Shown here: positions 27,674 to 46,291 of the stretch, piece after piece
How the letters are laid out: the number at the start of each line of letters is the position of its first letter
Numbering within the stretch: the stretch's first letter is position 1
Origin: Pirellula staleyi DSM 6068
GTDB taxonomy: Bacteria > Planctomycetota > Planctomycetia > Pirellulales > Pirellulaceae
Assembly (NCBI GenBank): GCA_945875845.1
Contig: CAMCMB010000028.1
Location: 1 to 64,000, forward strand
Direction: 5' to 3'
DNA: 64,000 nucleotides
The notes under the pieces: model-generated
Seen by the model: only the letters and a program-made list of their open reading frames with translations
What the model was told of the DNA's origin: nothing
Databases searched by the model: none
Made by a program: the position numbers and the translations under genes

Positions 27674-27826
27674 CTATACTCGAAACTGAGTGTTATTCCG
27701 ACGGCCAGATTCTTAAGGTGGGTTTTTTTGCCTTAGTGTTCGGTTGGTCGGGACTCCATTTTACAGCCTTGCGAGGTATTTCATTTCGCGAGGAGTTCCT
27801 GGCTACCTTTGCACTGAGGGTTGGTG

Positions 27827-30800
27827 ATGACCATCCGCCGGCTTCGCAACAAGAATTTTTCCACCCGAACTATTGCTCCTCAAGACGCTGTTTCGAGCGA
27901 AGCAAAACGGTCCAAGCTCCGTCGCTGCCTGCTTGAAACCTTGGAGTCTCGGCAAATGATGGCTGCGGGACCTAGGTTGATTGGAATCCAGCCGAACAAT
28001 AGTGATTTAATCGAGAATGGCGTGGTGCGCAGCATCGCTCCTAGGGAGCTTACGTTCCGCTTCGATGATTCACAGGTCATTGATGCAAATACGCTCAGTG
28101 GCATCCGCATCACGCGGTCCGGAGGAGATGGATCCTTCGGTGTGGCTAGCGCGTCGAGCGATTTTGGGACGGCTGGGAAAGTCGAGCTGCAACTTAGCGC
28201 GGTTGACCAAGGAGCCACCTTCGATGTCAATGTTTCTAAAGGCACGAGTTTCGCTGTCTCGCTATCGAACAATATTCTCTCGGTGACTCTTGCGCCGAGC
28301 ACTACCGCAAAGCAGCTGGTAGATGCAATCAATACGACACCCACGATCAATACTCGGATCCGGGCGAAGATCAACGGGGGGCTGGAGTCCACGCTGCTCA
28401 GCAATGGCAACCCTGCCGCTTATTCGCCTATTCGACTAACGCAAACCAATGACATCATCGTCCAGCCAGGCATGCGGAGTGTTGGCGAAAATCCAGACGA
28501 GAACGAAGTTACAGTACGGTTCGCAGAGAATTTGGTCGACGATCAATATCGCATCGAAGTCTTTGGCTTTGACGACCCGACGTTAGGTATCGTTGGGTTG
28601 CGAAATGTGGGTGAGAATGGTCTGCCCGGAAACCTGCTGATTCCTTCGAAGCCCAATACCCGATCGGATACGGTTGATTTCCGGTTGGATCTCGGACCGC
28701 AAGTTATTTCGGTCGTACCGCAACCGGTTGTGCGTCTCAATGGACAGTTGAGTCAGCAACGCGACACCATCGTCGTCTACTTCGACCAAGAAAAGCTGTT
28801 GGTTGAAAACGACGCTCAAGGTCGTCCGACGTCGCGATCGGTTGAGAACCCAGATTTCTATCAATTGATCTTCACAAGGGACACGATCCGAAACACGGAT
28901 GATGGAGCGGCGTTCAAGCCCATTTCGGTACGCTACAACGTAGCCTCCAACACGGCAACTCTTGTCTTTGCAAGCGACTTGGATACGCTTCCGGGTTCGG
29001 GTGCTGGTCCAGTCACATACCGCTTAAGAATTGGTAGTCGCGAGACGCAGCCTCTCGCCCCGACCAGGAACGAAGCGGCCGCCAACGCCATTACGGATTT
29101 CAACACGGCGGGTGCCGTCAAAGTTCGATTCACGGCCAACCAAATCGGTGAAGAGGGCAGTGGAGTTCAGGTTGAGTTCGTGAACTCGCTCAACGGAAAT
29201 CCGCCGGCTGTCACGGTCGTTGGTCGCAAGATCACCGTGGATCTGGGGACTGCAACCGTTACGGCGAAAGAGGTCGTGGACGCGATCCTGCTTGTGCCAG
29301 CTGCGACGAGTTTGGTGAGCATCGACTATGAGCCTGGCAGTGTCCCGTCGACGGTCATTGGCGATCGATTGCTAAGCTATTCGCCGGTCACTTTGTTTGG
29401 GCTGGGGAGTTCGTTCAGCACCGCGATGAATTTAGGGTCGATTGGGTCTGCGAATCTGCTCCAGAGCAGTTTAATCCTATCGTCCTCGATCGATCCTGAG
29501 CCATTTGCGCTGGACTTGGAGGGTGCCAGCGATGACCCGGCTCATCGTACCTTGCCACAGAATCTAGTTGGCGGTTTTGAGAATCACGTCAATGCGGCCT
29601 TCGGAGCAGATCCGACGGCTGGAATCACGACGATCTATTACAACTTCAAAACGGTTTACGCTAACGACAACTTAAACAATCCTTTAGTTAACTCGATCAC
29701 CGAGGAGCAAAAAGGCCGAACGCGTGAGGCCCTCAATTTATGGGCGCACAAGATCGGTGTTCAGTTCGTGGAAACTGCCGATCAAGGTGTGACGATCGCG
29801 TTGGGCTCGTTGACTGGGCTGACGCCGGTTGCAGCGACTCAAATCAAAACGACAGCAATTCAAGTTGGTCTCAACAATACGATCAATTTCGGTGTGCGCA
29901 TCGATAAGACGTTTGCCAACTCATTGATCATTCTGGAAGCCACTCGCGCTTGGAATAATTCGTACGGTGAGGATTACTTCCGATCGACGATGGCGAGCAT
30001 TGGAATGGTTCTAGGCCTTGAGCATGCGGGCGATCTGCCTGAAAGCACGCTCATGCGATTGGATCCGACCTTCTTTGCGGGTACCGGTCCAACGATCAAT
30101 CCCAACGACGTGCAATTGACGGCAAGTGAAGAACGTTTCGAGCCAATTTTTCCAGGTAATCAGGACGTTCTCCACGGTCAGTACCTGCATCGACCGGATG
30201 GGTCGGACATCGATTTGTATCGTTTCGAAGTGAATTTAGGTGACCCCAGTCGAGAGGGCTTGTTCACGCTTGAAACGTATGCGCAGCGTCTAGCCAACAG
30301 CAGCGAGTTGGACACGAATCTGCATCTGTACAAGCAGACGCAAGCTAAGGGTGTGACCAACTTTGGCGTAAGCAATCTGTTGTCGGTCGAGTTCACCGCA
30401 GTGCGTCCAGGTAGCCAGGGAAATCAATTCCAGATTTACTTGACTCAGACTGTGCGAGGTGGAGCACCCTCCATTTCGGTGTATCCGAATGCGATCGGGA
30501 TCGATCTGAACGCGACGCCTGGCAGTGAGAGCACTGTCGATGAGATCATTGCGGCGATTCAGAGTTCGAGTGAGGCGAGCCGTTTGGTCACGGTCAAATT
30601 GGCCAAGGGAAGTGGTAGCACCAGGGTTGGTGGAAATCTGCTGACTCAGAATCCGATCATCACTTCGGGTGGAAAGATGGAGTTGATTTCACGGAACGAT
30701 GACTACTTCAGTCGCGATTCGGTGATCAAAGTATCGCTCAACAGCGGGGTCTATTTTGTTGGCGTTAGCGCCAGCGGCAACGACGACTACAACGCGGCCA

Positions 30801-33800
30801 TTCCTGGCACGGGTTTCGGCGGGCAATCGCAAGGCAAGTACGAAATGCGGCTCACGTTCCGTGGGCAAGTTGGCATCGATGACGCAATTCAAGACGTTTC
30901 CACAAATTCGCTGAGCGACCCGTCGGTCGGACTCGACGGTGACGGGGATGGAGTTGCGGGTGGAATCTATAATTTTTGGTTCGAAACCCGTCCGCTCAAT
31001 CGAACGTTGAACTTCAATGCTGGCGGTTCCACGGCAATCGAGAGCCGGATCGTCACGGTGGTGGGCGCGAATGGAGCGACACGCGTATTCGAGTTCTCCA
31101 GCGATGCCATCGTCAGTCCTGGTCGCATCCGCATCCCTTATGTGAATGGCAATACTGCGAGCGATTTGGCCAGCGCGTTAGCCAACGCGATTACCTCTCA
31201 ATCCACGCTGGGAGTCAGTGCCTCAGTCAACGGTAGCAGCCTCGTTTTGCAGGGTGAAAGATCGATCACCGTCGATCCCGCATTGCGTTTGATTGATGTG
31301 GTCGGCAAGAACATTTTCGTCGACAAATCCGCCGGTCCGAACGCGGACGGCAGCTTGAGTCGTCCATTCAACAATATCGCTGGAGCCGGAGTTCCCAACG
31401 CGTTTGCTTCGGCCTTGCCGGGTGACATCGTGCGCATCGTCGGCAACGGTGGTGGCGACGGAAAACTGGAAACCATTGGCGACAATATTGCCTACGAAAT
31501 TGGAATTGGTCTCTTGCCTGGAGCGATTCTTGCAGATGGGTTAACGATGGATGTCCCGAGGGGGGTCACCACGATGATCGATGCGGGAGCCATTTTCAAA
31601 TTTAGAAATGCGAGGCTGGGTGTCGGCAGTTCGAACCTGAACATCAATCGATCCGGGGCTGCATTGCAAGTTCTTGGTGCGCCGTCGTTGCTCGACGCGA
31701 ACGGAAACATGCTCAAGCAAGCGACGGGTGGTGTTGCTCCCGGAAGTGTGTATTTCACCTCTTGGCTGGATGAAACGATTGGGCTCGATACGTATGGCCC
31801 GAAAACGGTCCCCGGTGCCGGGGATTGGGGAGGGATTGCATTCCGACGGGATATCGATGTCGCGTCGGGTCGGCGCGATGGCGAGGACGAAGGAATTTTC
31901 CTTCAATACGTCAATAATGCCGACATGCGATATGGTGGAGGCAGCGTTGTCGTTGACGGGGTTGCACAAACCATCAATGCAATCCAGATGTTCGAAACGC
32001 GTCCCACGATCACGTACAATCGAATCACACGCAGTGCCGATGCCGCGATGAGCGCGCTTCCAAACAGTTTCGAAGAAACCAATTTCAACGAACCACGATT
32101 CCAACTGAGTGGCGCGTTTACAAGCGATTACGATCGAGTGGGACCAGAAATCCACCATAACACTCTGACCAACAACTCGCTCAACGGATTGTTCATCCGG
32201 GTCGACACACCTTTGGACGGGGCGCCCAAGACCCTCACGGTTCCAGGGCGATTCGACGATATCGATATCGTTCACATTTTGTCTGATAACTTGATTCTCT
32301 CGGGTGCGCCCGGTGGGTCGATTCTGGACGGTTTCACTCCCGCTGCGGACTTGGTCTCCGTTGCACCTGGAGTCGGCGGAACGCTTTTGCCGGACATCTA
32401 CAACTACAAGTTGACGTTTGTCGACCGGAATGGCAGCGAGAGCGTTCCTTCCAATGCGACGCGAAGCATCAGTCTCGTTGGCAATCAGACTGCGATTGAG
32501 TTATCCAGTCTGCCGTCGGCAACGGGTGATTTTGTGACTCGCCGATTGTACCGCAGCAGTGTGAGCGGAACGGGAGCGTACGAATTGATCGCATTGCTGG
32601 ACAAGTCAACCTCGACTTACTTGGATATTGGCAAGTCTTTAGGCGGGACGCTCGCTCGTGATCGCTTGGATGTGTCCGCTGTTTTGCTCGCAAATTCCGC
32701 AGGTGGGACATTGGCCGCCGGCCGATACAATTACCGTTTCGTCATGGTCGACGCGGCTGGACTCGAGGCGCTTGCATCCAACCCGACCAGCGACATTGTC
32801 CTGCCGAGTGGTCAATCGGTTGTGTTAACACAATTGCCGCAACCACTGCCGGGTTATGTGGCCCGACGCGTCTATCGAAGTGCAAGCAACGGCTCGGGAC
32901 CCTATTCGTTGATCGCTGAGTTGCCGAATGCAACGATGTCCACCTTAGCCTCGCTGACGGACGATGGTTCCGTTACAGGTGCTGCGCTTTCGCCTGAGTC
33001 ACTGGCTGTCAAGCGACCTCGTCTGAATTCATCCTTGGTGATCGATCCAGGTAGCGTTTTGAAGTTGGAAGGCTCGCGTATTGAGGCAACGTTTGGTACT
33101 CGTATCATCGCCGAAGGTACCGAGGATTTGCCGATTATCTTTACGAGCAAACTGGATGATCGATACGGTGCTGGCGGTACTTTTGACACCAACAACAACG
33201 GGACGAGCACACGTCCATCACCTCGCGATTGGGGTGGTATTTACGCCGCGCCGACGGCGTCTCTGAGCGTCGATCATTCGACGTTTGCGTACGCTGGAGG
33301 TGTGACTAGGTTGGACGGTACGTTCCGAGCGTTCAACACGATTGAGCTTCAACAAGCCGATGCTCGCATCGCGCATTCGGTCTTCGAAAACAACGCCGAC
33401 GGTTTTGGTGGGCAGGGTCCGGGTACTCGATTTGGTCGACTGCTGAATGAGCCAGCCACGATCTTTGTCCGCGGCACGCAGCCAACCATTCTCGGCAATG
33501 TGTTCCGAAACAACATCGGCGCAGCGATTGATATCGATGCGAACAGCATGAACGATGAGGTGATGGCGGATTCAGGACGGCAGACTGGAAATGTGGACAT
33601 CAATCCAAATTATTCTACGAACGTAGGACCATTGATTCGCGAAAACAGGTTCGCGAATAACACTCTGAACGGGTTAAAGATTCGCGGTGATACCTTGACC
33701 ACCGCCAGCGCTTGGGACGATACCGACATCGTTCACGTTGTGTATGACGGGATTTTCGTCGGGAACTACCAGCACGAGGGTGGCTTGCGTCTGCAGAGCG

Positions 33801-36800
33801 CCACCAATGAATCGTTGGTGATCAAGTTCGATGGATATGGTTCGAACTACAATCGCAACTTGGGCGCGGGGATCACAGCCAATGGCCAGTTGATGCCTGG
33901 CAATAACCGCGTCGGCGGCACGTTGCATTTGATGGGCCAACCGGGCTTCCCGGTGATCTTGACGAGCTTGAAGGACGATACCGTCGGAGCGGGCTTGCGT
34001 CCGGACGGACGATCGCAAAACGACACGAATAATGATGGGATTGGTTCTGTTCCAGGCAGTGCGGACTGGCGAGGTGTCTTGCTTGATCAGTACTCCAACG
34101 ATCGCAATGTCGGGCTCGTATTGGAAACCGAGGATATTGCGGCAGCGGCCCCTGGTCCGAATGGATCGATCCGCACGGCACAAGGCCTTGGAAGCTTGGC
34201 GGCCACGGCTTCGTCCGGCAGTGAAAACCTTCGGCTCGGATTTGTGATCAAGGGTGTGTTGAGTCAGGATCAGGACGTCGACCTCTACAGTTTTTCGGCC
34301 GAAGCAGGGACTGAGATTTGGCTGGATGTCGACTATACCAAGATCAACCTAGACACCGTTATCGAGCTCTTGGATGCGAATGGCGAGCTGATAGCGCGCA
34401 GCGATAACAGCACCGAAGAAACACTTGTTCCAGCGTTGCTTTACCGATCTCCGCAGATCGATCCGAGCAGTGTCAATCCCTTGCCAGTGCGTACCACGAA
34501 TGTGCGAACGAATCGAAGCGGGTTGGTCAAGGAAGATGGGACGACGAATGTTCGAGACGCGGGGATGCGGATCGTTTTGCCTGGCACTGTTGGGGCTCGC
34601 GGAACATTCTATTTCCGATTGCGAAGTGCGGGAACGGATATCGCCAACGAAAAGGCTGGACTGAGTTCTGGACCATATGAAATTCAGCTTCGACTGCGAG
34701 AGCAACAAGAGTTTGCCGGCTCAATGGTGAGCTACACGGATATTCGTTACTCCACCAACGGAGTGCACCTTCGAGGCTTGCCAACTTCTTCCCCCTTGAT
34801 TGGAGAAGCGGCCGAAGATGAGAGTGTTGAGTATGTCGACTCAGCGAACAATTTCCGCACCAACAGCAATGCAGAACTGACGGCATACAATGGAACGGCG
34901 GTTGGCCAACTCACGGTCGGCAATCGTCCGCAGTACATTGGCAATCTATTGAACACTGCCAATGGCGGAATCAGCCTAGCAGGCTCGCTCAGTACAAATA
35001 CCGATGTGGATTTTTATCGACTTGATATTCGTCAGCAAGATATCGTCGGCAGCATGAGCGGAGGTTTTGCTTCGGTCATGTTTGATATGGATTACGCCGA
35101 TGGACTGAACCGACCCGATACATCGATCAATGTTTTCATCGAAGAAAATTCGCTTCGATTTGGAAAACAGTATCGGTTGATCTACTCAGGTGATTCGAGC
35201 AATATCGCCGACGATCAAGCACGACCGTTGTTGGTCAACGACGCTTCGGATCTATCTCGCGGTTCTTTGGGAACGAAAGATGCCTCGATCGGACCTGTGG
35301 CGCTGGCCGAAGGGACGTATTTGGTCGCGATTTCGTCGGCCGGGTATCAACCGCGCACTCGGATCATCAACCAATTCAATACGGAGCCCATCAGCTCGAT
35401 ACTCCGAATTGTCGACGAGGATTTCGTAGCTGGGGCGACTACGGCGTTGCCGCCAGTGATCCGTAACTTTTTGCCGCAGCCCAATCCCAGCATTGGACCG
35501 ACCGGTGAGCTGATCTCCAAGGTCTTTAACCTGGGTGCCTATTCGGCGGCTGATCAACCGGCTACCTACATCGACTATAATTTCCCAGGTGGGAACTTCA
35601 GCATTTCCATCAGGGATTCCGCGGGTGTCGAGACTGAGGTCGCGAGATCCCAATTTGGTGGAACGCTCCAGGCTGGGACCAATTCGATCAAGATCCCTCT
35701 CAATCAGTTTGCGGGACAAGATGGGCTGACGATGATTTTCCGCAGCACACAAGCTGCGACAACGATCACCAATGTCATTATCGGTTTCGCCGAACGCGGT
35801 GAGAGAGTGGGAACGCCAGACGAACCTGTTTTGTCACCTGGCATGAACTTGTTTGGTGATTTCAATGCGACTCCTCCCGGCCCGTTGTCGCAGAATTCAA
35901 CTCGCACGTTCTCGTTGGCGACTTATACGTTTGCCGATGGACCGAGAGTGGCGTTTGACTACGAAGTCTTTACAGGGCAGTTGGACGTATTTATGCAGTC
36001 GGCATTGGGTCTGCAAAGAATTGCGACGACGGATAATGTCAATCGACCAGGGAACGTCGTTTTGCTGGTTGCAGGCTCCCCTCAACGAGCCTCGATCGAC
36101 GTGTCCCAGTACGCCGGCCAAGCTGGACTGGCTGTTGTTTTCCGTGCACGTGGTGCCGGCGATGGTCGCGTACGAATCGGGGCGGTAACCATGGAATTGG
36201 CCGATGGGTCCCGAATCTTCTCGGGCGAGCCGAATCCTACGTTCGTGAACGTGCCGGTTCCATCTACCACGATCACGCGTGGTGCCTATCAGTTGGAAGT
36301 GCGGTTAGGGGAAAATTTCTTTACGTCGAATTCAAGTGGGACACCAACGCTAACCAAGACTTTTGACACCAACGATCGATTTGCGGAACAGATCGCGATT
36401 GTTGCACCCGCTGGTTCGAATCTAACGGATGGAGATGTTTTTGAGATTTCCGACGGTGGTACGCGAATTGGTTTTGAGTTTTCCGTTGATAACGTCGTAT
36501 CGGCCGGAAATGTACCGGTTCGATTCACACCTGCGGATCCGGCTTACGTAGTGGCGAGAGCGATTCGTGACGCGATTAACAACCCGAACGTTCAGTCGCG
36601 ATTGCGAGTCAGCGCAGCCACATCCAGTGGAATTGCGACGGGGACCACGGGCCGAGATACGCGTATCAATTTGATTGGAAACGCAGCCGTGTTCCAGGTC
36701 AAGTCCGCGAAGCCGGCTGGCATGGTTCAAGTGATTTCGTATTCTGGGATCGGCGATCGCAATGTGACACGTGATCAAGGGCAGTTGATCGTTCAGAATA

Positions 36801-39800
36801 GCTTCATTCGCAATTCTCGCGACTATGCGATTTGGTCCGAGCCAGCGGCAAGGATGGCGGATCCTCGCGACACGGAAGACGCGGGCAACACGTTTAGCTT
36901 TAACGGGGGCAATTTCGGCGGATTTAATTTAGTCGACGACATTCAAGCGAAGCCCTCGCTCGCAGGCACTCAAGCGGTGCGCAATCTACCCGCGCTCAAC
37001 AACAGTGTTCCAGGTGGACTCGTATCGGGAGTCGTGATCCAGAATAACGTTCTTGAAGAAGGCGGACTCGGGGGAGTCAAGATCAACGGCGAGAATCCAA
37101 TATGGATGATCACGCCTCAACTAATCCCTTCCGAAGATAACAACCCGCTTGTCAACGGCAGTGCACCGGTCACGCACTTTGGCACGTATATCGACGACGG
37201 AGATGTGCTGGTCATCGATGCGGACCGAACACGATTGCGATTCGAATTCGACGATCTAGCTGGAGGTCCAGCTGCTGCTGGCGGTAGCACTCAAGTTGAG
37301 GGCAACGGTGTTGCGCTTGACAGTACCATCGCATGGTATCGAGACCTGGGTGGAAGCTACTATCAACGACTGACTTGCACCAACTGCCAGCCATTTGCGA
37401 CCAATGCATTTGAAACAATGCATGCCTTGCGAGATTCTATCTTGGGAAGCATCTTTGTTTCCAATGGAACCACGCAAATCATTCAGGCGACCATAGCTCA
37501 GAGTTTGCTCGGTCCTGATCCAGGCGCTCCGCCATCGAGTGCGGGAAATTTTTATCCCGAGTATTTCAATCGAGCATCGTTGTATCTAGAAGGGGTCACG
37601 GCGCTGGAGTATGTGGACACACCTGGCGGATTTTCAAACAGATTAGATATCCGTCGCCTTCCATTGGGCGAATCGCCGCAACCCCAAACCCGAATCGTGA
37701 ATAACACGATCATCGGCAAGGATGGTCGCGCAAGTTTCAACGGTGGAGCGGCAGGAGCGGAAACCAATGACACGCTAGACTCTGCTGTGCAAACGTGGCA
37801 AGGAACCTCGCACAATCCATTGTTCTATAGCGATGTGGGAATCATCGGTGACGCGGGCGTTGGAATCGCCGGAAACAATCCGGCCTCGACAGGGAACGGT
37901 AGCGGAGGAAATGGCGGCAGTTTCAACTACTCCTTGGCCAATCTCAGCTCCAATCGTTTCGTCTTGAGGTTTGAAGATGGGGTATCGCCTGAGCGTCAAG
38001 CCGAGATCTTGGCGGCCGAAGGTCTTGAAATCATTCGGCGATATGATTTTATCAATGCCTTGCTGGTGCGACGGCAGGACAATAACCTCACGATCATGCG
38101 ATTGCAGCAATTGGACGCGATGCCAGAGATTCGGTATGCCGAGCCGGATATGGACATGCATTTTCAGCGCGTGCCAAACGACCCGCAGTACCCGCAACAA
38201 TGGCAGTACGATAATCAAGGTCAAACGGGCGGAAAAATCGACGCAGACATCGATGCCCCAGAGGCTTGGGATTTGGTCACGGGTTCGACACAGACGGTGA
38301 TCGCCGTCATCGACTCTGGTGTTGACTACAATCACACAGATCTGCGTGCCAATATGTGGGTCAACCCAGGTGAGATCGCTGGGGATGGTATTGACAACGA
38401 TGGCAACGGTTACATTGATGACATCTACGGTATCGACCCATTCGACGGCGATTCGGATCCGATGGACCTGAACGGTCACGGCACCCACGTTGCGGGTACG
38501 ACGGCTGCGATAGGTAACAACGGTCGGGGAGTCACCGGGGTCAACTGGAACTCCAAGATCATGGCGCTCAAGATCGGTGCTGCCGGTCCGGCTGTTTCGT
38601 TCTTGGCCGCGGTCGAATCGTTGAACTACTTGGTGACGATGAAGACCCAGTACGGAATCAATATCGTTGTAAGCAACAACAGTTACGGCGGACCAGGAGG
38701 TTCGCAAGCCTTTCAAGATGCAATTCAAGCGACCATCGATGTCGGGATTTTGTTTGTGGCGGCGGCTGGAAACAATGGGACCAACAACGATCAGCAGCCG
38801 TTTTTCCCGACGAGCTTCCCGCTCGACGGAATTGTTGCGGTGGCAGCCACCGATCACAATGATCAATTGGCGAACTTCTCGAACTTTGGGGTGACTTCTG
38901 TCGATATCGCGGCTCCCGGTGTAGACATTTTGAGCACGACGCTCGGCGGTGGTTATGGACTCCTGAGCGGAACATCCATGGCTTCGCCGCACGTGGCGGG
39001 TGTGGCTGCACTCTTGGCGAGTTCCAATCCAGGCATGAGCGTTGCTCAGTTGAAGTCGGCGATATTGCTGGGTGCGGATCCGCTGCCTAACTTGAGCAAC
39101 GTGGTTCTATCCGAAGCACGTTTGAATGCAGCCAAGTCGGTTTTCGTATCGAATGCTGGGCTGGGTAGTTTCTTGGCAACCTCGGATGTGGATATCTACC
39201 AGTTCAAACTTGGGGTTGGAGAACGGGCGATCATCGATATCGATTCGGCCAACAGTGGGCTGGATTCGGTCTTGCAAATTTTCGACAGCCGAGGGGTCCC
39301 GCAAACGTTCATGAATGCCAACGGAATTTCGTTGACGGCAAGTGATAACGATGCGGCACCAGGCGAGCTATTGAGCTTGGATTCCTACGCAGACTTCACC
39401 GCGACCTCTCCGGGAGTTTACTATGCTGCTGTGAGTTCGGTCGGCAACTCAACGTACGATCCCCTTTCGTTCGCCAATCGCAAGGCTGGAAAAACGACGG
39501 GAGCCTATCGGATTACGCTGAGTGCTCGGCATATGCAGGATTTCGTTATCACTGCAGAAGATGCATCCGCCTATCGAGCAGGCGAAACATTCACGATCCA
39601 CGGCGTGCCGGATCTGGACGGTCAGCAAACCACGGGACGTACTTTCGAATTCGTCTTCGGTATCGGTGGCCAAGTTGCCCCGGGTAATATTCCCATTAAT
39701 CTCAATGCGAACTGGCGATTCCCAGACGTTGCCCGAGCGATTGCCAAGGCGATCAATGAGGGGCTAGCGGGCGGGCCGGCTGTCAGCAATGCACAGCAAT

Positions 39801-42800
39801 TGCCGAACGGCCAGTTTGGAACGGCCAGTCCGTTGCCGGCCGTGCATGCTCGCGCCATGGGTGGTCTAGCGAACATCTTGGATGCGGATTTCAATTCTAT
39901 CGTGGGTGATAGGGCTCCCTTGATTGAGCTTTTGGGTGATATTGACGAGCTAGGGACCAACGCAGTGAGTCCTCGCGAAATTCGCCGTCAACTGGGTGGC
40001 GACTTTACGGAAGTCAACCAGGGTCTCCGCGTATTCACGCGACGCTTTGACGGGTTTATCACTTTCACGACAACGGTCCTCAATAATTTGCCTCCATTCC
40101 TCAATGTGACGAGCTTATCGCACATGGGTTTTGGACACGACCGCTTGTCGACAACCCCACTCTCGCTGACTTCGATTGGCGACGGAACTTCGGAAAAGTT
40201 CGTGGTGGTCAAGAATGCGGCCTGGATCACGGGCAACAATACTGTGATCGTTAGTCCGGATGAAAATGAGGGGAACAACTTGGATTCGTTGTTGCCGGAA
40301 ACGGGAGTTCTCGCATCACGCGGGGCCAGCCCAACGATTCTCAACAACGTCTTCTTTAACCTGCAATCGCCGGTCATCAAAGAGGAGTCGCGACGTTATC
40401 CGGTTGTTGGGCCGTTCACAGGTGGGTTTGCACCCTATGGCTTCGATGGTGAAACGGTCGTTTCGAAGCCGAGCGAAGTGATCCTGGGCGGATCGGTCTA
40501 TCAGCACGATGAGCCGGCTGCATCCAAAGTGCGGTTCACCACGGGCATTGAGAAAGTCCCGACAAACATTCCGAATACTGCCTTGGACTTCAATTTCGAC
40601 GTCGCGGATGGTGTGAAACTTTTCGTGAACGCACAAGCAGGGCAATACCTGCCAGCGTCTGGTTCGATCTTGATTGATAGCGGTATCGATTCCTTGCCTG
40701 AGCGACCTTTGTTTGCGAATGTCAAGAAATCCGTTGGGATTTCGGTCTCGCCGGTGATCGCGCCAGACCGTGATGCCGTTGGCCAGTTGAGGGTGGATGA
40801 TCCATCGGTAGCGCCACCGAGCGGCTTGGGGCAAAATGTGTTTAAGGATCGCGGAGCGTTTGATCGGGCAGACTTCCTTGGCCCAACCGCCGTCTTGGTT
40901 AATCCTCTCGACAATGATGCCCTTGGTGTCGATAAGGATTCCGCGGTGTCGGTCGTCCAGCTTACGGAAGGTGTGTATTCCGAGTTTCGCATTCAATTAC
41001 GCGATTCCGATGAGACCTTCGGAGGCATTGGCGTCAACGATGATTCGGTAGTCACGTCCGAGGTAAGTGGCGTTCGAGCCACAGGAGCTTCGGTCGTCTT
41101 GTTCGAAAATGGACGATTGCTGGTAGAGGGAATCGATTACCGTTTTGCGTACGATACGACACGCAACGAAATTATCCTCACTCCGCTCGCGGGTGTTTGG
41201 AAAAACGATCGCGTCTACGATATTCTTTTGAACAACAAGGACCGCTTTGTTTTGGTCGCCCCATCCGGCGACACGATTCAGGACGGAGATCGAATGATTA
41301 TCCGAGATAGCCTGGGTGGCAATGTCCATTTTGAGTTCGAAAGTGGCTTCCGATTGCAAATTCCGCAGGGTTTAAAAATCCAGGTACCTTTGGCAGGTGG
41401 ACAAGCCGGCGGTGTCGTGGATGGCGATCGATTCACCATTACGCAAGGCACGCTCCAAGTGACCTTCGAGCTGGACAACAATTCCAATTTCCTAGCTGGA
41501 AATATTCCCGTCGTTTTCAGCAAGACGTCGTCGCGTGAGGAAATTGCCAACACGATTGCGGCAGCGATTCGAACGACCTCACTCGCGGTCAATCCTGTCG
41601 TCCAACCAAGTGGCAGTGTTTACTTGGGTGCGGCCGCGAACACACGCGTCAACACCGCTCTTTCCGCCCTGACACAACCGATTCAAACGGATGGGTTGCT
41701 GGTTCCGAATTTGGGTGCTGGCGTGGGAGGTGTTACGGATGGACAGCTCGTTTCGATCAGTGACGGTCGAGTCGAGATTGTGTTTGAATTTGATACCGAT
41801 GGTAGGTTCGATCCAGCCAACTTCCGAATTGATTCCTCGCAAGCGAGCAATGCAAACGACATTGCCAAGCTTTTGGTTCAATCGATTGTGGCCAGTGGTC
41901 TTAAACTGCAGCCGCGAATCATGGGTTCCGACGTGGTACATCTTGGCCTGTCACCGTCGGGTTCCGTTAATCTTTTGAATTCCAAACTGAGCCTGGTGGG
42001 TGTTTCACGTACGATTGCGGACGGCGAACAATTTACGATCTCAGACGGCAGCCTCACCAAGACGTTCGAATTCACGTTGGATGCGATTGTCAAGCCTGGC
42101 AGCATCCCCATTGCGTTCCAACTGACGGACACTCAAGATCAGTTGGGGGATTTGGTCGCGCAGACTATTAAGAACGCGGGCTTGAACTTGGATCCAAAAC
42201 ACATCAACGACGGCAACATTGCGATCGGTGGAAACGAACAGCATCGCATTGATGCATCGGCCGCTCCAAGCGTCGGGTTGTTTGGAAAGCCTGGTGTGGC
42301 GACCAACACGACTTTGACGATCGTCGGTTCGTTGCTGCTAGAGGTGCCACCGATTGTGGGACAAGATTTGCAGGACGATACGTTCCTAACCTTGACGAAC
42401 AATGGCGTGACATTGGTGATCGAGTTCGATGGTAATTCGAGTGGTTCGACTGTGCCCGGCAGTGTTGTGGTGCGGTTTAACCCATCCAGCACGGTTCCCA
42501 CTATCGTGCAGTCGATGATCAATGTCATCAACGCGTCGGGTCTCGGAATCGTTGCGAAGGGGGCTGGAGGGCCGTTCATTGATCTGGGTGCGGTTCCAGA
42601 TACGACGGTTGTCAGCAACACTTCCGCAATTAGGCAGTCGCGTAGCAACGTCGACGATGGACAGTACTTCTCGATCAACAATGGAACGAAGACGGTTACC
42701 TTTGAGTTCGAGAACGCAACCAACAACAATGGCTTTACGGCTGGTCGTATCCCAATATTCTTCCGCTCGTCAAGCACGAGGGCAGAAGTCATCGACGCGA

Positions 42801-45800
42801 TGAAGGCCGCCATCGAAGCATCGGGGCTTGGATTGCAAACCGAGGTTCTTTCGAACTCGTCGCTCAAGTTATTAGACAATCCGCAGTATACCTTTGTGAA
42901 CAACGGCACTAGCTTGGAGGTTTCGGGCGTACCCGGTGGAGCGACACCGATCCAATTCCTGCAGGATGTTGTTTTCACGGCAGAAATGATGCGCGATGCG
43001 ATTATCAAGGCCATCAACTCGGCAACTAACACGTCCCTGTTTGCTAAGAAACGGGGTGGCAACACTCTGTATGTTGAGAATGCGATCTCCATCGATTCGC
43101 CGGTTCCGAATTACTTCCAACGAGCCATCGAGGATTTGGCAGGGAATGATTTGCAACCCAATCGCATCAATAATGAAACGCAGTTTTCGATTCTGATGCC
43201 AGGGTCGCAGTTGGACTTCGGTGACGCCCCCGATCCAGTCTCGACAACTCCAGGCCGTTATCCAACGTCGCAAGGATCTGACGGAGCACGCCATGTTTCG
43301 AACGCAACGGATTTGCGACTTGGTTCCACGATCACCGGGGAACAAGATGGAAATCCGACACCCAAAGCCGATGGCGACATGGGTGACGATGGAGTTGCGT
43401 TCAAGTTCCAAGGACTCGACAAGCCCCTCTTCAATCGCAACGTTGACACGCTGGTGACAGTGACCTTGTCATCGCCCGGTATTGTAGATGGGTGGATTGA
43501 CTTCAACGCGGATGGAGACTGGACGGATCCAGGCGAGAATGTTTTGAACGGCGTTATTTTTGAAACCTCGACGCTGACGCAGACGTTCAGCATCCGAATT
43601 CCAACCACATCGCCCGTGCCGACGGTTAGCACCAATTCGTTTGCTCGGTTCAGGGCTTCCTCCTCAGGCAATCTTTTGCCCACCGGTCTAGCCTTGGACG
43701 GTGAAGTTGAGGATTACTTGGTCCGGATCGTACCCGGTGTTCCGCCGATCGGAACGTCGGATAGCTATGCCATGAACGAGGATCAAGTGGGTGGACTTGT
43801 AACGTCGGATCCGACGGGCCAATTGACTCCGGGATTTGTGGTCGACGACGGCGTGCTGGCCAACGATACCAGTCCTGACGGACGGACGCTATTCGCCAGA
43901 CTCCTGACTCCTCCACAACATGTGGCGGGCAATTCCTTTGTGTTCAATTCGGATGGGACGTTTAGCTATCAGCCAACGGCGGACTACTTCGGTGAGGACA
44001 CATTTGTTTACTTGAATTACGTCAATCTGGATGTGAACGAGAATGAAATTCTCGAGTCGCTGGTTCCGACGACCGTCACCATCACCATTCGCCCGGTGAA
44101 TGATGTGCCGACGGCATCGAACTTCGCCCGTGACACAGACGAAGACGTGTCAATGACACTGACGCAATCGGACATAGTGACCTTGAGTCAGGCGTTGGCA
44201 GGGCCAGCGAACGAATTCGGACAGACGTTACGAGTTTCCTTGCCTAACAATGTCACCGCTCAGGGTGGTAGTGTGAGCCTGTTGAACGGTGGCGTGATTT
44301 ATACGCCGCGAGCCGATTTTAGTGGCATCGACACGTTCGCATTCACGTTGACCGACAATGGCGTGACCGGTGATCTTGCAGATCCGTTAAGCGTGACACG
44401 TACCGTTACCATTACCGTGCGAGACAAGAATGACGCACCGATTACGACACCGAAGTCGTTTACGATCCCTGAAGATCTCTTGAATGGTGATACACGGCCA
44501 ATTTCGTTCTTCCTCGAAGGAGATACAGCCGGACCACCATCGGAAATCACTGGACCCAACGCGCAAACAATCACTTTCTCAGGTGTGGTCGCTACCAGCG
44601 AGTTTGGCGGAACGGTATCGTTTGCGAACGGAAATGTAACCTATCGTCCGGCTCCCGATTTCAACGGAGTGGACCGGTTCTTCTATCTTGTTACCGACAA
44701 TGGAACGAGCCAGGGAATAGCAGATCCGCTCACGTCGCGGGGCACCGTTACGGTTACGGTTACAGCGGTCGACGACGCTCCCCGGGTTGTTGCACAGTTT
44801 GGCACTGTCAACATGCTTGAGGATGCCCCCGAGCGCGCCTTCCCGCTTGCGAATTATTTCTTTGATCCGGATGTGATTCCTAATGATGACAGGCTCACTT
44901 ACCAAGTTTTGAGCAACACCAATCCTTCGCTGGTTGAACCAACCTTGGGTGCCAATGACATCTTCATCCGACCCAAGCCCGACCAAAACGGCACGGCCGT
45001 TATTGTTTTCGAAGCATCCGACCGCGCTGGGAACAAAGTTACCAATACGATGACGGTGATCGTTGCACCGGTTGCCGACAGTCCGCGATTGAATGCACCA
45101 TTGCCAAATCGGAGTGTTTTAGAAGATGAAATCATTCCTGACACGGTTTTGGCACCGACGTACTTCTACGACCCGGACGTGATCCTCAATGGAGATGTGC
45201 TGACCTACACGGTCACCAACTCGAATACGGATGTGGTGACTGCGTCGATTGTCAACGGAACGTTGCGGCTCGTTTTGGTTCCAGATGCTTCTGGAGTCGC
45301 GACGATTACCGTCCGAGCGGTTGACACGGCGGGCAATGCCATTGAAGACAGCTTCGATATTTCGGTTTCGCCCGTAAACGATGCGCCTCGCGTTGTCGAC
45401 GACTTGTTCTATCTCAATCCGCAGGGAGTCGAGTTGCGAACCACCGATGCCCGCGGGACGGCTACACCGTCTATTTTTGACGACGGCGTGTTGGCGAACG
45501 ATCGGGACATTGAGGGCAATACGTTTACAGCTCGTGTGACTCGTGCACCGACATTGGGCCAATTGACCCTCAACTTGGATGGGACATTCAGTTACATTCC
45601 AAATTCGAACACACTCGTGGGTGCGGTAGATACGTTCAAATACCAAGCGGTGGATTCGCTGGGTGCCGTGAGCGATGAGGCGACGGTCAATATTACCATT
45701 ACCGCTCCACCTGCATCGAAGCATCAAAATCCGATTCAGAAGTTGGATGTGGATGCGGACGGTTTTGTTTCGCCGATCGATGTTTTGCTGATCATCAATT

Positions 45801-46291
45801 TCCTAAACTTCCGGGGTGAACCGTCGGTTTCCATCGTTGGTCTGCCTGATCCACCGCCCTATCGGGACGTGAATGGCGACTATTTTATCAGCCCGTTGGA
45901 TGTGCTTGAAGTTATCAATTACATCAACCGTCGGGCGAATGGGAACGCTGGGGGCGAGGGAGAGGGTGAGGGCGAGGGAGCGACTGTTTCGTATGTAAGC
46001 GGGAACCTAGCGGCTCCGATGACTTGGAGCACGAATGTGATGCGAAATACACCGAATATTGGTACAACCATGGTTGACGTAGCATCGCGTAATTCGATGG
46101 AATACGCGGCACAACCGGCAAAACCGAATGCGGTCGCCGCACGTGGTGTAAGCGTGTCAGAATACCTCTCAAGCTTTGGAAATGATGCCGAAGACGAGGT
46201 CGAGCGACTGGCTGGTCTTGCGGCTGCCAAGAGCTCCCAAGAAGACCACGAATCGTTAGACTCGTTCTTTGCGGAAGTCTTTGGCCAATAG
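27827..46291 (+). CDS. Giant surface protein with embedded S8 subtilisin, GEVED domain and C-terminal dockerin (6154 aa)
   Basis: ATG 27827 was chosen because GAGGG ends six bases upstream; GTG 27824 and TTG 27821 precede it. Near residue 36 is a LEPR-XLL-like stretch (CLLETLESRQMMA), a planctomycete hallmark of large secreted proteins. Residues about 600-750 are a decayed matrixin-like region, with ASIGMVLGLEH at the zinc site. Beta-helix and PPC-like domains follow. An S8 subtilisin occupies about 3375-3777, with its own prodomain and catalytic D3496, H3551, N3649 and S3717 (GTSMASPHVAG). Five full copies of a module of about 95 residues lie at 41.4-43.0 kb, then a GEVED domain (43.2-43.7 kb), Ig/cadherin-like repeats, and two dockerin motifs (LDVDADGFVSPIDVLLIINF). 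The paralog downstream lacks the protease. Probably a secreted or surface-bound protein; function unknown. Confidence 0.9.
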   Translation: MTIRRLRNKNFSTRTIAPQDAVSSEAKRSKLRRCLLETLESRQMMAAGPRLIGIQPNNSDLIENGVVRSIAPRELTFRFDDSQVIDANTLSGIRITRSGGDGSFGVASASSDFGTAGKVELQLSAVDQGATFDVNVSKGTSFAVSLSNNILSVTLAPSTTAKQLVDAINTTPTINTRIRAKINGGLESTLLSNGNPAAYSPIRLTQTNDIIVQPGMRSVGENPDENEVTVRFAENLVDDQYRIEVFGFDDPTLGIVGLRNVGENGLPGNLLIPSKPNTRSDTVDFRLDLGPQVISVVPQPVVRLNGQLSQQRDTIVVYFDQEKLLVENDAQGRPTSRSVENPDFYQLIFTRDTIRNTDDGAAFKPISVRYNVASNTATLVFASDLDTLPGSGAGPVTYRLRIGSRETQPLAPTRNEAAANAITDFNTAGAVKVRFTANQIGEEGSGVQVEFVNSLNGNPPAVTVVGRKITVDLGTATVTAKEVVDAILLVPAATSLVSIDYEPGSVPSTVIGDRLLSYSPVTLFGLGSSFSTAMNLGSIGSANLLQSSLILSSSIDPEPFALDLEGASDDPAHRTLPQNLVGGFENHVNAAFGADPTAGITTIYYNFKTVYANDNLNNPLVNSITEEQKGRTREALNLWAHKIGVQFVETADQGVTIALGSLTGLTPVAATQIKTTAIQVGLNNTINFGVRIDKTFANSLIILEATRAWNNSYGEDYFRSTMASIGMVLGLEHAGDLPESTLMRLDPTFFAGTGPTINPNDVQLTASEERFEPIFPGNQDVLHGQYLHRPDGSDIDLYRFEVNLGDPSREGLFTLETYAQRLANSSELDTNLHLYKQTQAKGVTNFGVSNLLSVEFTAVRPGSQGNQFQIYLTQTVRGGAPSISVYPNAIGIDLNATPGSESTVDEIIAAIQSSSEASRLVTVKLAKGSGSTRVGGNLLTQNPIITSGGKMELISRNDDYFSRDSVIKVSLNSGVYFVGVSASGNDDYNAAIPGTGFGGQSQGKYEMRLTFRGQVGIDDAIQDVSTNSLSDPSVGLDGDGDGVAGGIYNFWFETRPLNRTLNFNAGGSTAIESRIVTVVGANGATRVFEFSSDAIVSPGRIRIPYVNGNTASDLASALANAITSQSTLGVSASVNGSSLVLQGERSITVDPALRLIDVVGKNIFVDKSAGPNADGSLSRPFNNIAGAGVPNAFASALPGDIVRIVGNGGGDGKLETIGDNIAYEIGIGLLPGAILADGLTMDVPRGVTTMIDAGAIFKFRNARLGVGSSNLNINRSGAALQVLGAPSLLDANGNMLKQATGGVAPGSVYFTSWLDETIGLDTYGPKTVPGAGDWGGIAFRRDIDVASGRRDGEDEGIFLQYVNNADMRYGGGSVVVDGVAQTINAIQMFETRPTITYNRITRSADAAMSALPNSFEETNFNEPRFQLSGAFTSDYDRVGPEIHHNTLTNNSLNGLFIRVDTPLDGAPKTLTVPGRFDDIDIVHILSDNLILSGAPGGSILDGFTPAADLVSVAPGVGGTLLPDIYNYKLTFVDRNGSESVPSNATRSISLVGNQTAIELSSLPSATGDFVTRRLYRSSVSGTGAYELIALLDKSTSTYLDIGKSLGGTLARDRLDVSAVLLANSAGGTLAAGRYNYRFVMVDAAGLEALASNPTSDIVLPSGQSVVLTQLPQPLPGYVARRVYRSASNGSGPYSLIAELPNATMSTLASLTDDGSVTGAALSPESLAVKRPRLNSSLVIDPGSVLKLEGSRIEATFGTRIIAEGTEDLPIIFTSKLDDRYGAGGTFDTNNNGTSTRPSPRDWGGIYAAPTASLSVDHSTFAYAGGVTRLDGTFRAFNTIELQQADARIAHSVFENNADGFGGQGPGTRFGRLLNEPATIFVRGTQPTILGNVFRNNIGAAIDIDANSMNDEVMADSGRQTGNVDINPNYSTNVGPLIRENRFANNTLNGLKIRGDTLTTASAWDDTDIVHVVYDGIFVGNYQHEGGLRLQSATNESLVIKFDGYGSNYNRNLGAGITANGQLMPGNNRVGGTLHLMGQPGFPVILTSLKDDTVGAGLRPDGRSQNDTNNDGIGSVPGSADWRGVLLDQYSNDRNVGLVLETEDIAAAAPGPNGSIRTAQGLGSLAATASSGSENLRLGFVIKGVLSQDQDVDLYSFSAEAGTEIWLDVDYTKINLDTVIELLDANGELIARSDNSTEETLVPALLYRSPQIDPSSVNPLPVRTTNVRTNRSGLVKEDGTTNVRDAGMRIVLPGTVGARGTFYFRLRSAGTDIANEKAGLSSGPYEIQLRLREQQEFAGSMVSYTDIRYSTNGVHLRGLPTSSPLIGEAAEDESVEYVDSANNFRTNSNAELTAYNGTAVGQLTVGNRPQYIGNLLNTANGGISLAGSLSTNTDVDFYRLDIRQQDIVGSMSGGFASVMFDMDYADGLNRPDTSINVFIEENSLRFGKQYRLIYSGDSSNIADDQARPLLVNDASDLSRGSLGTKDASIGPVALAEGTYLVAISSAGYQPRTRIINQFNTEPISSILRIVDEDFVAGATTALPPVIRNFLPQPNPSIGPTGELISKVFNLGAYSAADQPATYIDYNFPGGNFSISIRDSAGVETEVARSQFGGTLQAGTNSIKIPLNQFAGQDGLTMIFRSTQAATTITNVIIGFAERGERVGTPDEPVLSPGMNLFGDFNATPPGPLSQNSTRTFSLATYTFADGPRVAFDYEVFTGQLDVFMQSALGLQRIATTDNVNRPGNVVLLVAGSPQRASIDVSQYAGQAGLAVVFRARGAGDGRVRIGAVTMELADGSRIFSGEPNPTFVNVPVPSTTITRGAYQLEVRLGENFFTSNSSGTPTLTKTFDTNDRFAEQIAIVAPAGSNLTDGDVFEISDGGTRIGFEFSVDNVVSAGNVPVRFTPADPAYVVARAIRDAINNPNVQSRLRVSAATSSGIATGTTGRDTRINLIGNAAVFQVKSAKPAGMVQVISYSGIGDRNVTRDQGQLIVQNSFIRNSRDYAIWSEPAARMADPRDTEDAGNTFSFNGGNFGGFNLVDDIQAKPSLAGTQAVRNLPALNNSVPGGLVSGVVIQNNVLEEGGLGGVKINGENPIWMITPQLIPSEDNNPLVNGSAPVTHFGTYIDDGDVLVIDADRTRLRFEFDDLAGGPAAAGGSTQVEGNGVALDSTIAWYRDLGGSYYQRLTCTNCQPFATNAFETMHALRDSILGSIFVSNGTTQIIQATIAQSLLGPDPGAPPSSAGNFYPEYFNRASLYLEGVTALEYVDTPGGFSNRLDIRRLPLGESPQPQTRIVNNTIIGKDGRASFNGGAAGAETNDTLDSAVQTWQGTSHNPLFYSDVGIIGDAGVGIAGNNPASTGNGSGGNGGSFNYSLANLSSNRFVLRFEDGVSPERQAEILAAEGLEIIRRYDFINALLVRRQDNNLTIMRLQQLDAMPEIRYAEPDMDMHFQRVPNDPQYPQQWQYDNQGQTGGKIDADIDAPEAWDLVTGSTQTVIAVIDSGVDYNHTDLRANMWVNPGEIAGDGIDNDGNGYIDDIYGIDPFDGDSDPMDLNGHGTHVAGTTAAIGNNGRGVTGVNWNSKIMALKIGAAGPAVSFLAAVESLNYLVTMKTQYGINIVVSNNSYGGPGGSQAFQDAIQATIDVGILFVAAAGNNGTNNDQQPFFPTSFPLDGIVAVAATDHNDQLANFSNFGVTSVDIAAPGVDILSTTLGGGYGLLSGTSMASPHVAGVAALLASSNPGMSVAQLKSAILLGADPLPNLSNVVLSEARLNAAKSVFVSNAGLGSFLATSDVDIYQFKLGVGERAIIDIDSANSGLDSVLQIFDSRGVPQTFMNANGISLTASDNDAAPGELLSLDSYADFTATSPGVYYAAVSSVGNSTYDPLSFANRKAGKTTGAYRITLSARHMQDFVITAEDASAYRAGETFTIHGVPDLDGQQTTGRTFEFVFGIGGQVAPGNIPINLNANWRFPDVARAIAKAINEGLAGGPAVSNAQQLPNGQFGTASPLPAVHARAMGGLANILDADFNSIVGDRAPLIELLGDIDELGTNAVSPREIRRQLGGDFTEVNQGLRVFTRRFDGFITFTTTVLNNLPPFLNVTSLSHMGFGHDRLSTTPLSLTSIGDGTSEKFVVVKNAAWITGNNTVIVSPDENEGNNLDSLLPETGVLASRGASPTILNNVFFNLQSPVIKEESRRYPVVGPFTGGFAPYGFDGETVVSKPSEVILGGSVYQHDEPAASKVRFTTGIEKVPTNIPNTALDFNFDVADGVKLFVNAQAGQYLPASGSILIDSGIDSLPERPLFANVKKSVGISVSPVIAPDRDAVGQLRVDDPSVAPPSGLGQNVFKDRGAFDRADFLGPTAVLVNPLDNDALGVDKDSAVSVVQLTEGVYSEFRIQLRDSDETFGGIGVNDDSVVTSEVSGVRATGASVVLFENGRLLVEGIDYRFAYDTTRNEIILTPLAGVWKNDRVYDILLNNKDRFVLVAPSGDTIQDGDRMIIRDSLGGNVHFEFESGFRLQIPQGLKIQVPLAGGQAGGVVDGDRFTITQGTLQVTFELDNNSNFLAGNIPVVFSKTSSREEIANTIAAAIRTTSLAVNPVVQPSGSVYLGAAANTRVNTALSALTQPIQTDGLLVPNLGAGVGGVTDGQLVSISDGRVEIVFEFDTDGRFDPANFRIDSSQASNANDIAKLLVQSIVASGLKLQPRIMGSDVVHLGLSPSGSVNLLNSKLSLVGVSRTIADGEQFTISDGSLTKTFEFTLDAIVKPGSIPIAFQLTDTQDQLGDLVAQTIKNAGLNLDPKHINDGNIAIGGNEQHRIDASAAPSVGLFGKPGVATNTTLTIVGSLLLEVPPIVGQDLQDDTFLTLTNNGVTLVIEFDGNSSGSTVPGSVVVRFNPSSTVPTIVQSMINVINASGLGIVAKGAGGPFIDLGAVPDTTVVSNTSAIRQSRSNVDDGQYFSINNGTKTVTFEFENATNNNGFTAGRIPIFFRSSSTRAEVIDAMKAAIEASGLGLQTEVLSNSSLKLLDNPQYTFVNNGTSLEVSGVPGGATPIQFLQDVVFTAEMMRDAIIKAINSATNTSLFAKKRGGNTLYVENAISIDSPVPNYFQRAIEDLAGNDLQPNRINNETQFSILMPGSQLDFGDAPDPVSTTPGRYPTSQGSDGARHVSNATDLRLGSTITGEQDGNPTPKADGDMGDDGVAFKFQGLDKPLFNRNVDTLVTVTLSSPGIVDGWIDFNADGDWTDPGENVLNGVIFETSTLTQTFSIRIPTTSPVPTVSTNSFARFRASSSGNLLPTGLALDGEVEDYLVRIVPGVPPIGTSDSYAMNEDQVGGLVTSDPTGQLTPGFVVDDGVLANDTSPDGRTLFARLLTPPQHVAGNSFVFNSDGTFSYQPTADYFGEDTFVYLNYVNLDVNENEILESLVPTTVTITIRPVNDVPTASNFARDTDEDVSMTLTQSDIVTLSQALAGPANEFGQTLRVSLPNNVTAQGGSVSLLNGGVIYTPRADFSGIDTFAFTLTDNGVTGDLADPLSVTRTVTITVRDKNDAPITTPKSFTIPEDLLNGDTRPISFFLEGDTAGPPSEITGPNAQTITFSGVVATSEFGGTVSFANGNVTYRPAPDFNGVDRFFYLVTDNGTSQGIADPLTSRGTVTVTVTAVDDAPRVVAQFGTVNMLEDAPERAFPLANYFFDPDVIPNDDRLTYQVLSNTNPSLVEPTLGANDIFIRPKPDQNGTAVIVFEASDRAGNKVTNTMTVIVAPVADSPRLNAPLPNRSVLEDEIIPDTVLAPTYFYDPDVILNGDVLTYTVTNSNTDVVTASIVNGTLRLVLVPDASGVATITVRAVDTAGNAIEDSFDISVSPVNDAPRVVDDLFYLNPQGVELRTTDARGTATPSIFDDGVLANDRDIEGNTFTARVTRAPTLGQLTLNLDGTFSYIPNSNTLVGAVDTFKYQAVDSLGAVSDEATVNITITAPPASKHQNPIQKLDVDADGFVSPIDVLLIINFLNFRGEPSVSIVGLPDPPPYRDVNGDYFISPLDVLEVINYINRRANGNAGGEGEGEGEGATVSYVSGNLAAPMTWSTNVMRNTPNIGTTMVDVASRNSMEYAAQPAKPNAVAARGVSVSEYLSSFGNDAEDEVERLAGLAAAKSSQEDHESLDSFFAEVFGQ

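Follow-up and report, generated by a model that had tools for sequence, protein, structure and literature searches.

On the forward strand of the window (the whole stretch of 64,000 nucleotides that was analysed), an open reading frame at 27821–46291 encodes a giant protein of 6,156 aa, P1, whose probable start is the ATG at 27827. Pfam searches, homology and by-eye reading gave its layout, which runs from a planctomycete-type N-terminal motif through a dead matrixin-like domain, a beta-helix and a PPC domain to jelly-roll-like and Big_9/cadherin-like domains, with a type I dockerin near the C-terminus (45746–45928, +; PF00404, 49.7 bits). For the matrixin-like and jelly-roll-like parts and most of the beta-helix, the names come from homology or visual inspection and not from Pfam, whose Beta_helix model reached only 16.4 bits, under its cut-off of 25.9, at aa 1744–1910. 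The name beta-helix is a reading of the first-pass annotation that we share.

The left flank of one turn of this beta-helix, NNTIIGKDG (aa 3294–3302), lies at 37700–37726 (+), and its right flank, ASPTILNNV (ASPTILNN at aa 4169), at 40325–40351 (+). Sequence comparison showed that the paralog P2 has the same turn without any insert at 55860–55937 (+), from NNTLYGRGG (aa 3198) to ASPSLLNN (aa 3216). The first-pass annotation had described this turn as short in P2 and separated by 2.6 kb in P1, and the motif positions were confirmed. In a third paralog, on contig C84, this turn holds yet another stretch, roughly 185 aa long.

Nested insertions in the beta-helix turn

Judging from sequence comparison, two nested insertions make up the 2.6 kb that separates NNTIIGKDG from ASPTILNN. 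The older one brought a PPC domain together with a module into the turn of the beta-helix; the later one placed a prodomain-subtilisin (S8) cassette, about 440 aa long, in the first loop of that PPC domain. The N-terminal part of the PPC domain (37736–37864, +; aa 3306–3348) was found by alignment and by our own profile, built from 20 S8-free PPC domains (E 1.4e-14), and S8 is placed inside the PPC domain because this part lies upstream of it. It is followed by a Gly/Ser/Asn-rich linker ahead of the cassette (37865–37948, +), by the cassette and by a short C-terminal cassette linker recognised by alignment (39128–39184, +). The C-terminal part of the PPC domain (39185–39538, +; aa 3789–3906) was matched by our profile at E 1.4e-49 and includes the part covered by PF04151 (27.2 and 28.9 bits, above the cut-off of 25.9); in three S8-free orthologs the same model scored 28.0, 34.5 and 42.0 bits. 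Behind it, comparison with orthologs delimited a module that reaches aa 4106 (39539–40138, +), the first half of which is found in S8-free orthologs as well.

The Pfam PPC model starts past the insertion point; our own profile and co-occurrence with the C-terminal part suggest that the N-terminal part belongs to the same domain. When the complete PPC profile was searched against solved structures, no PPC structure came up, and the one match was weak and unrelated (E 0.64). In the AlphaFold model the PPC parts form poorly modelled blocks of pLDDT 28–60, predicted there without aligned relatives, and it is sequence conservation that suggests a possible re-assembly of the PPC domain around S8.

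The first-pass annotation had taken the 2.6 kb as one insertion event distinguishing the two paralogs. This is ruled out by the paralog comparison and by S8-free orthologs with PPC, since P1-type proteins of several genera have the PPC domain and no S8. The insertion of S8 itself was upheld, with other borders than proposed, namely S8 in PPC and PPC in the beta-helix turn. Likewise, the PPC-like domain reported after S8 is indeed there as a C-terminal part, but a simple downstream position is wrong for the domain as a whole. All borders are approximate. Target duplications and DNA-level insertion traces were sought in occupied/empty and S8/S1 host pairs, where the borders are unreadable to the base because such pairs already diverge by about 25% in DNA. 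An assembly artefact is an unlikely source of the arrangement, because genome G016 shows the same one in a single frame of 6,157 residues.

The cassette begins with a prodomain (37949–38164, +; aa 3377–3448), modelled at pLDDT of about 70–94 with the element order beta-alpha-beta-beta-alpha-beta. The I9-like prodomain described earlier resembles the Fervidolysin_NPro-like family PF22148, which scored 16.8 bits in the window, under the cut-off of 21, and 28.2 and 26.2 bits, both over it, in the cassettes of G036 and G075. The S8 catalytic domain follows (38165–39127, +; aa 3449–3769). It was identified by PF00082 (175 bits vs. a cut-off of 21.8, match at 38291–39076), by an alignment to deseasin MCP-01 with 51% identity and by Foldseek, which gave a TM of 0.97 (by target) against 3vv3_A. 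The prodomain and S8 are mostly at pLDDT 70–98. From the deseasin MCP-01 alignment the mature N-terminus of S8 would be near aa 3449, and the solved chain of that enzyme begins 3 residues ahead of the aligned stretch.

The active site of the cassette is intact. The catalytic Asp 3498 (38312–38314, +), His 3553 (38477–38479, +) and Ser 3719 (38975–38977, +) and the oxyanion Asn 3651 (38771–38773, +) are each invariant in all 21 cassettes compared; the first-pass annotation had picked the right residues with numbers 2 too low, because it counted from the ATG at 27827. Between the window and G016, dN/dS was 0.109 for S8, which is thus under purifying selection, 0.224 for the prodomain and 0.05–0.13 for the other parts. 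The earlier claim of an intact protease is well supported in this respect, and the cassette is predicted from its sequence to be a working protease.

Occupied and empty sites in related giant proteins

Among 21 same-genus P1 loci, to which the S8-carrying P1 of the window comes in addition, 15 have a whole PPC domain without S8, four carry S8 and two were assigned to neither class. In the 15, both PPC parts lie in one frame with 8–23 residues between their BLAST matches. In genus g38, all seven P1 loci fetched have the same PPC, short-looped and free of S8; they come from six genomes that lack a close S8 match and from G075, whose S8 is in another protein. These 15 and seven loci strongly support the insertion of S8; they are also the protease-free versions that had been sought together with matching borders, and both were found, the borders in refined form. 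The profile of the PPC N-terminal part gave 58 matches in the fetched open frames, with some genomes included twice. The C-terminal part follows at most 60 aa further in 47 of them, and the remaining 11, which lie 431–448 aa ahead of it, are exactly the 11 carriers with a cassette in the PPC loop. No remnants of S8 or of the linker were seen in the 17 empty loci aligned. S8 is dispensable, not essential, to P1, as most same-genus orthologs do without it.

Related cassettes were found in at least 21 giant proteins among 241 family genomes, 11 in the PPC loop (site A), seven in a loop of the jelly-roll-like domain (site B) and three before a matrixin-like domain (site C). The cassette is thus a recurrent module with relatives in other loops of homologous giants. 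The search used a threshold of E 1e-85, and the 20 stretches fetched comprised 18 carriers and the free-standing enzymes of G121 and G237. The 21 are a lower bound because other long frames of G231, G236, G237 and G238 (about 3,300–3,440 aa), like the majority of the frames between 1,000 and 1,900 aa, were left out of the carrier count.

In a tree of the 21 inserted S8 domains and ten of the free-standing ones, one clade per site was rejected by the AU test (p 0.04, 0.017 and 0.0007, marginal for site A). A single clade of all 21 was not rejected (p 0.21), and the module may have arisen only once. Within site A, the cassette tree did not disagree significantly with the host tree (AU p 0.078 and 0.068). 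The host tree was restricted to hosts that covered more than 450 query positions, and the rows of 13 near-duplicate genomes and one G036 duplicate were removed. Hosts with and without the cassette are interleaved in this tree, with G068/G076 and G067/G065 as occupied/empty sister pairs. At site B, G247 has a trypsin-like S1 domain (PF00089, 67 vs. a cut-off of 20.6 bits) in the position where its sister host G246 has S8. The same loops elsewhere hold PPC-like stretches, other stretches or nothing; for site B, PPC content was assessed with Pfam in G198 (18.7 bits, under the cut-off) and by eye in the other cases. It appears that the giant proteins acquire, lose and exchange built-in proteases.

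The HExxHxxGxxH zinc motif of matrixin-type metallopeptidases is lost in both P1 and P2 of the window. A table of 46 host rows (G036 entered twice, G211 without a motif reading) showed it intact in only two, the site-C hosts G075 and G115, and lost in P1-type rows both with and without S8. A role of S8 as substitute for the lost metalloprotease of the same protein was rejected, as the two hosts that keep the motif carry S8 too.

Proposed maturation of the giant and comparison with known systems

We favour, at a probability of roughly 0.55, the reading that a cassette was inserted in frame into the loop of a PPC domain itself lodged in the beta-helix, and that its maturation nicks the giant and leaves an anchored active protease. 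A prodomain before S8 is general among subtilases, and cleavage at the prodomain junction is known behaviour of the family. After export, the prodomain would fold the S8 domain and then be removed by a cut near residue 3449, in the manner of other subtilases; if S8 matures in this way, the same cut would leave the giant in two pieces, one of about 3,450 and one of about 2,700 residues. Both halves of the PPC domain that the cassette interrupts may hold these pieces together, so that an active protease would be anchored on the surface or in the matrix. The main substrate might be P1 itself, one or more of its paralogs, or proteins from outside. Self-cleavage after export, as suggested in the first-pass annotation, is plausible from the sequence.

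More tentatively, the loops of the giant exported proteins in this bacterial family could be interchangeable slots for built-in proteases, with a cassette that moves among them and can be swapped for an unrelated serine-protease fold, while maturation nicks the giant inside a domain whose split halves remain joined. Should this hold, processing would be encoded within the structural protein, with no separate processing enzyme.

Less probable than the favoured reading, we consider, is a displayed exoprotease, in which the giant is a long surface scaffold, S8 digests outside proteins and the processing of the giant, with the prodomain possibly removed, has no function. Its nearest solved relative is deseasin MCP-01, a subtilase of Pseudoalteromonas, and P1 has dockerin and cadherin-like domains; the protease is dispensable to its host, and its site and even its fold change while a protease stays. 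The scaffold would nevertheless still be cut by maturation unless the prodomain remains attached.

Accidental domain shuffling, in which insert-tolerant loops gather whatever recombines and S8 is of little or no use, would fit the varied contents of these loops and the occupied and empty sister hosts. We think it improbable, given that the catalytic residues are invariant throughout, the prodomain is retained and dN/dS is about 0.1; none of the 21 cassettes is decayed, though the search threshold would favour intact ones. An S8 in the common ancestor of P1-type proteins, lost cleanly in most lineages, would account for the interleaved host tree but is very improbable: in six of the seven site-B carriers, the PPC at site A shows no gap of the size of S8 (the frame of the seventh, G246, stops before it), the hosts at site C are different paralogs or, in the case of G075, come with an empty P1, and every loss would have had to restore the short PPC loop, also in the 15 S8-free loci of the same genus and in G032 and G036.

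On the favoured reading of an inserted, self-nicking cassette, a likely processing enzyme lies within the chain itself, at a known place, and the protease-free orthologs are natural controls. Whole enzymes repeatedly plugged into loops, with S8 or S1 at one and the same loop of sister hosts, would reveal loops that tolerate large insertions, which is useful for evolution and protein engineering.

No earlier description of such nested proteases in giant proteins was found in searches of open-licence papers. To our knowledge, subtilases of the deseasin MCP-01 type are small, free-standing enzymes whose additional domains follow S8. The P1 enzyme shares their S8 fold, at the identity given above for 3vv3; unlike them, it is nested whole in a mid-chain domain of a giant. 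Nested insertion involving S8 is also found in subtilases with a PA domain, as described in PMC5177683, but there the nesting is reversed, with a small domain inside S8, whereas in P1 S8 lies inside another domain. Giant genes and huge proteins of planctomycetes, as presented in passages of PMC5177795 and PMC11573180, are of the same size and surface-protein character as P1, and the latter names dockerin and cadherin-like domains in them. Those passages do not mention built-in proteases such as that of P1, and the word "peptidase" occurs in neither text; according to PMC11573180, it is unclear what becomes of very large proteins (over 5,000 residues) once they are made, and cleavage may befall some of them. 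Polymorphic toxins, as described in PMC3482391, are large modular exported proteins with built-in proteases, including subtilisin, and P1 resembles them in this; Pfam found no toxin domain in the whole of P1 or in P2 up to 56000. Unlike the proteases of those toxins, as described there, the cassette of the P1 family sits inside other domains and changes place.

Insertion of the S8 protease in the first giant protein

The first giant protein of the window (P1) is an open frame of 6,156 residues on the forward strand (27821-46291), and its paralog P2, the second giant, runs from 46269 past the window end. Analysis of P1 revealed matches to PPC, Big_9/cadherin-like, GEVED and type I dockerin domains and an S8 (subtilisin) domain at 38291-39076 (175 bits). 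The planctomycete-type N-terminal motif PF07595 (22 bits, cut-off 25.5) and Beta_helix (16.4 bits, cut-off 25.9) scored below their cut-offs. The sequence landmarks of the first-pass annotation were all found in place, and its residue numbers refer to the right positions with an offset of 2 that comes from the choice of start.

A search of 60 relatives took the P1 segment downstream of the insert as query. In 21 out of the 26 genomes of the window's genus the match reached the P1-specific part, and in the remaining five the matches started at about query residue 148 and were paralog-like. At 15 of these 21 loci the N-part and C-part of the PPC lay in one frame, without S8 and with 8–23 residues between the BLAST matches. 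Two others (G016 and G024) had S8 between the PPC parts, and the last four (G004, G015, G020, and G022) were interrupted by contig ends; other contigs of G020 and G022 carry S8 in this position. The empty PPC loop was also present in G032 and G036, hosts of other genera, and at seven P1 loci of g38, another genus of the same family, among them that of G075, whose S8 is in another protein.

The alignment placed the PPC N-part (NDTxxxAxxTxQG..., aa 3306-3348) upstream of S8 and the C-part (DVDIYQF..., aa 3789-3906) downstream. We built our own PPC profile from 20 empty domains and split it into both parts. In the fetched frames, which include some genomes twice, its N-part gave 58 matches. The C-part was at most 60 aa away in 47 of them and 431–448 aa away in the other 11, which are exactly the 11 proteins with the protease in the PPC loop. 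Since the insertion point lies ahead of DVDIYQF, where the Pfam PPC model begins, S8-PPC would look like a normal tandem in a scan with Pfam alone.

The beta-helix turn concerned runs from NNTIIGKDG to ASPTILNN in P1 and from NNTLYGRGG to ASPSLLNN in P2. Nothing is inserted there in P2, a third giant paralog of the same genome (L066, contig C84) has a different insert, roughly 185 aa long, and the PPC is found in P1-type proteins from several genera. This marks the turn as an insertion spot in its own right, with S8 as the later arrival, inside the PPC. The core idea of the first-pass annotation, that an intact protease was inserted, is right; its borders and its number of events had to be revised, to S8 nested in PPC and two events.

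Recurrence of the cassette in other proteins

The cassette, i.e. the prodomain plus S8 (query aa 3376-3785), was searched against 241 family genomes, of which 60 had a match at E 1e-85 or better. Around these matches 20 stretches were fetched, and 18 of them, together with the window, G016, and G024, were counted as carriers. The cassette was found inside at least 21 giant proteins, a lower bound since only part of the matches was inspected. The cassettes were 51–89% identical to that of the window, and the active-site D, H, N, and S were invariant in all 21.

Eleven lay at site A, the PPC loop of P1 (window, G016, G020, G022, G024, and, in g38, G067, G068, G069, G071, G072, and G074). Seven lay about 800 residues upstream at site B, a loop of a jelly-roll-like domain (G036, G106, G246, G228, G230, G232, and G239). 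This domain was named by eye, and a scan of the G036 stretch gave no Pfam match; the host backbone of site-B carriers showed mostly 30–50% identity, and up to 61% in a short N-terminal stretch. Three occupied site C, which immediately precedes the first strand of a matrixin-like domain: G075, with Peptidase_M10 (Pfam, 29.4 bits) directly behind S8; G115, with an intact zinc motif; and G211, with only a short matching stretch before the contig end. The zinc motif is intact in G075 as well, and is lost in the matrixin-like domains of both giants of the window (P1 aa about 724-736, P2 aa about 557-569).

Site B holds other inserts too. In a neighbouring region of the host tree G246 carries S8 there, G245 and G249 have 15–19 residues at most, and others, such as G248 and G191, have PPC-like stretches. 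G247, the sister host of G246 (SH-aLRT 100), has a trypsin-like S1 protease at this site (L238:7909-9132; PF00089, 67 vs 20.6 bits) with TAAHC and GDSGGP motifs; its host frame is broken upstream of site B in its assembly. A search at E 1e-15 detected no kin of this S1 in the genome of the window, nor in the 19 genomes of its genus that were listed without match. The recurrence of kin cassettes in several loops, with another protease fold in one of them, lifts the case above one odd protein. At site B of G215 (L278) we also observed a 614-residue insert without Pfam match.

Of 396 genomes of the order that were searched (family members included), 95 matched at E 1e-100 or better, and four long frames were fetched. 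In G443 (L303), a giant of another family, S8 is in the beta-helix itself, between the adjacent query positions 845 and 846 of the P1 helix segment, and the prodomain part of the window's cassette was unmatched. G331 (L305), an otherwise different protein, provides a second example, separate from P1, in which prodomain-S8 is flanked by PPC-like N- and C-parts (C-part 27.1 bits, N-part without Pfam match). In G510 prodomain-S8 is behind an apparent Calx-beta domain, read by eye, and G048 has an S8 of free-standing type near its N-terminus.

Apparent movement of the cassette and of its host gene

A tree was built from S8 domains, 21 of them inserted and 10 free-standing. In this tree, 20 of the inserted ones fell on one side of a branch whose support (91/78) is not strong, and that of G115 was placed among the free-standing ones. 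One clade per site was rejected (A, p 0.0415; B, p 0.0166; C, p 0.00067), and since these values are uncorrected for the number of tests, the rejection for site A is marginal. All 21 as one clade was not rejected (p 0.21). A host tree made by a quick method interleaved occupied and empty site-A hosts, pairing G068 (S8) with G076 (empty) and G067 (S8) with G065 (empty), and at least three changes were forced by well-supported branches. Mixed cassette trees of this kind would result from gene conversion among cassettes of different sites as well as from transfer. The G+C content at third positions, 0.62 in the cassette and 0.58–0.59 in its surroundings, gives no strong sign of recent foreign origin.

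The host segment next to the beta-helix of the window's P1 was 75% identical to that of G069 and 56–67% to ten other g38 genomes, but only 46–51% to 12 S8-free P1 of its own genus. A GlgC-like protein was 80–95% identical in 11 same-genus genomes and 69–76% in seven out of eight g38 genomes. P2 was 95% identical to that of G016, 57–65% to seven other same-genus genomes and 50–53% to six g38 genomes, with G020 (50%), G022 (44%), G015 (40%), G068 (45%), and G067 (nothing) as counter-cases. P1 is thus nearer to g38, while the GlgC-like protein groups with the genus, as does P2 in most of the genomes sampled. This pattern suggests that the P1 type of the window was transferred from one genus to another, although differential loss of old paralogs would be an alternative explanation.

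Structure and putative maturation

AlphaFold with 24 named S8 relatives predicted the prodomain and S8 mostly at pLDDT 70–98 and the PPC parts at 28–60. Between the window and G016, dN/dS was 0.109 for S8, 0.224 for the prodomain, and 0.05–0.13 for other parts, which shows that the enzyme is being maintained and not decaying. Self-cleavage is the mechanism that we hold most likely. Subtilases normally cut at the prodomain junction, and a cut near aa 3449 would leave two pieces of P1, one of about 3,448 residues and, after it, one of about 2,708 that runs from S8 to the dockerin region. This position comes from the best Foldseek match, deseasin MCP-01 (3vv3; TM 0.97 by target, 51% identity). 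Its solved chain begins 3 residues ahead of the aligned stretch, so the mature S8 would start near aa 3449 if the deseasin MCP-01 chain starts at its natural N-terminus.
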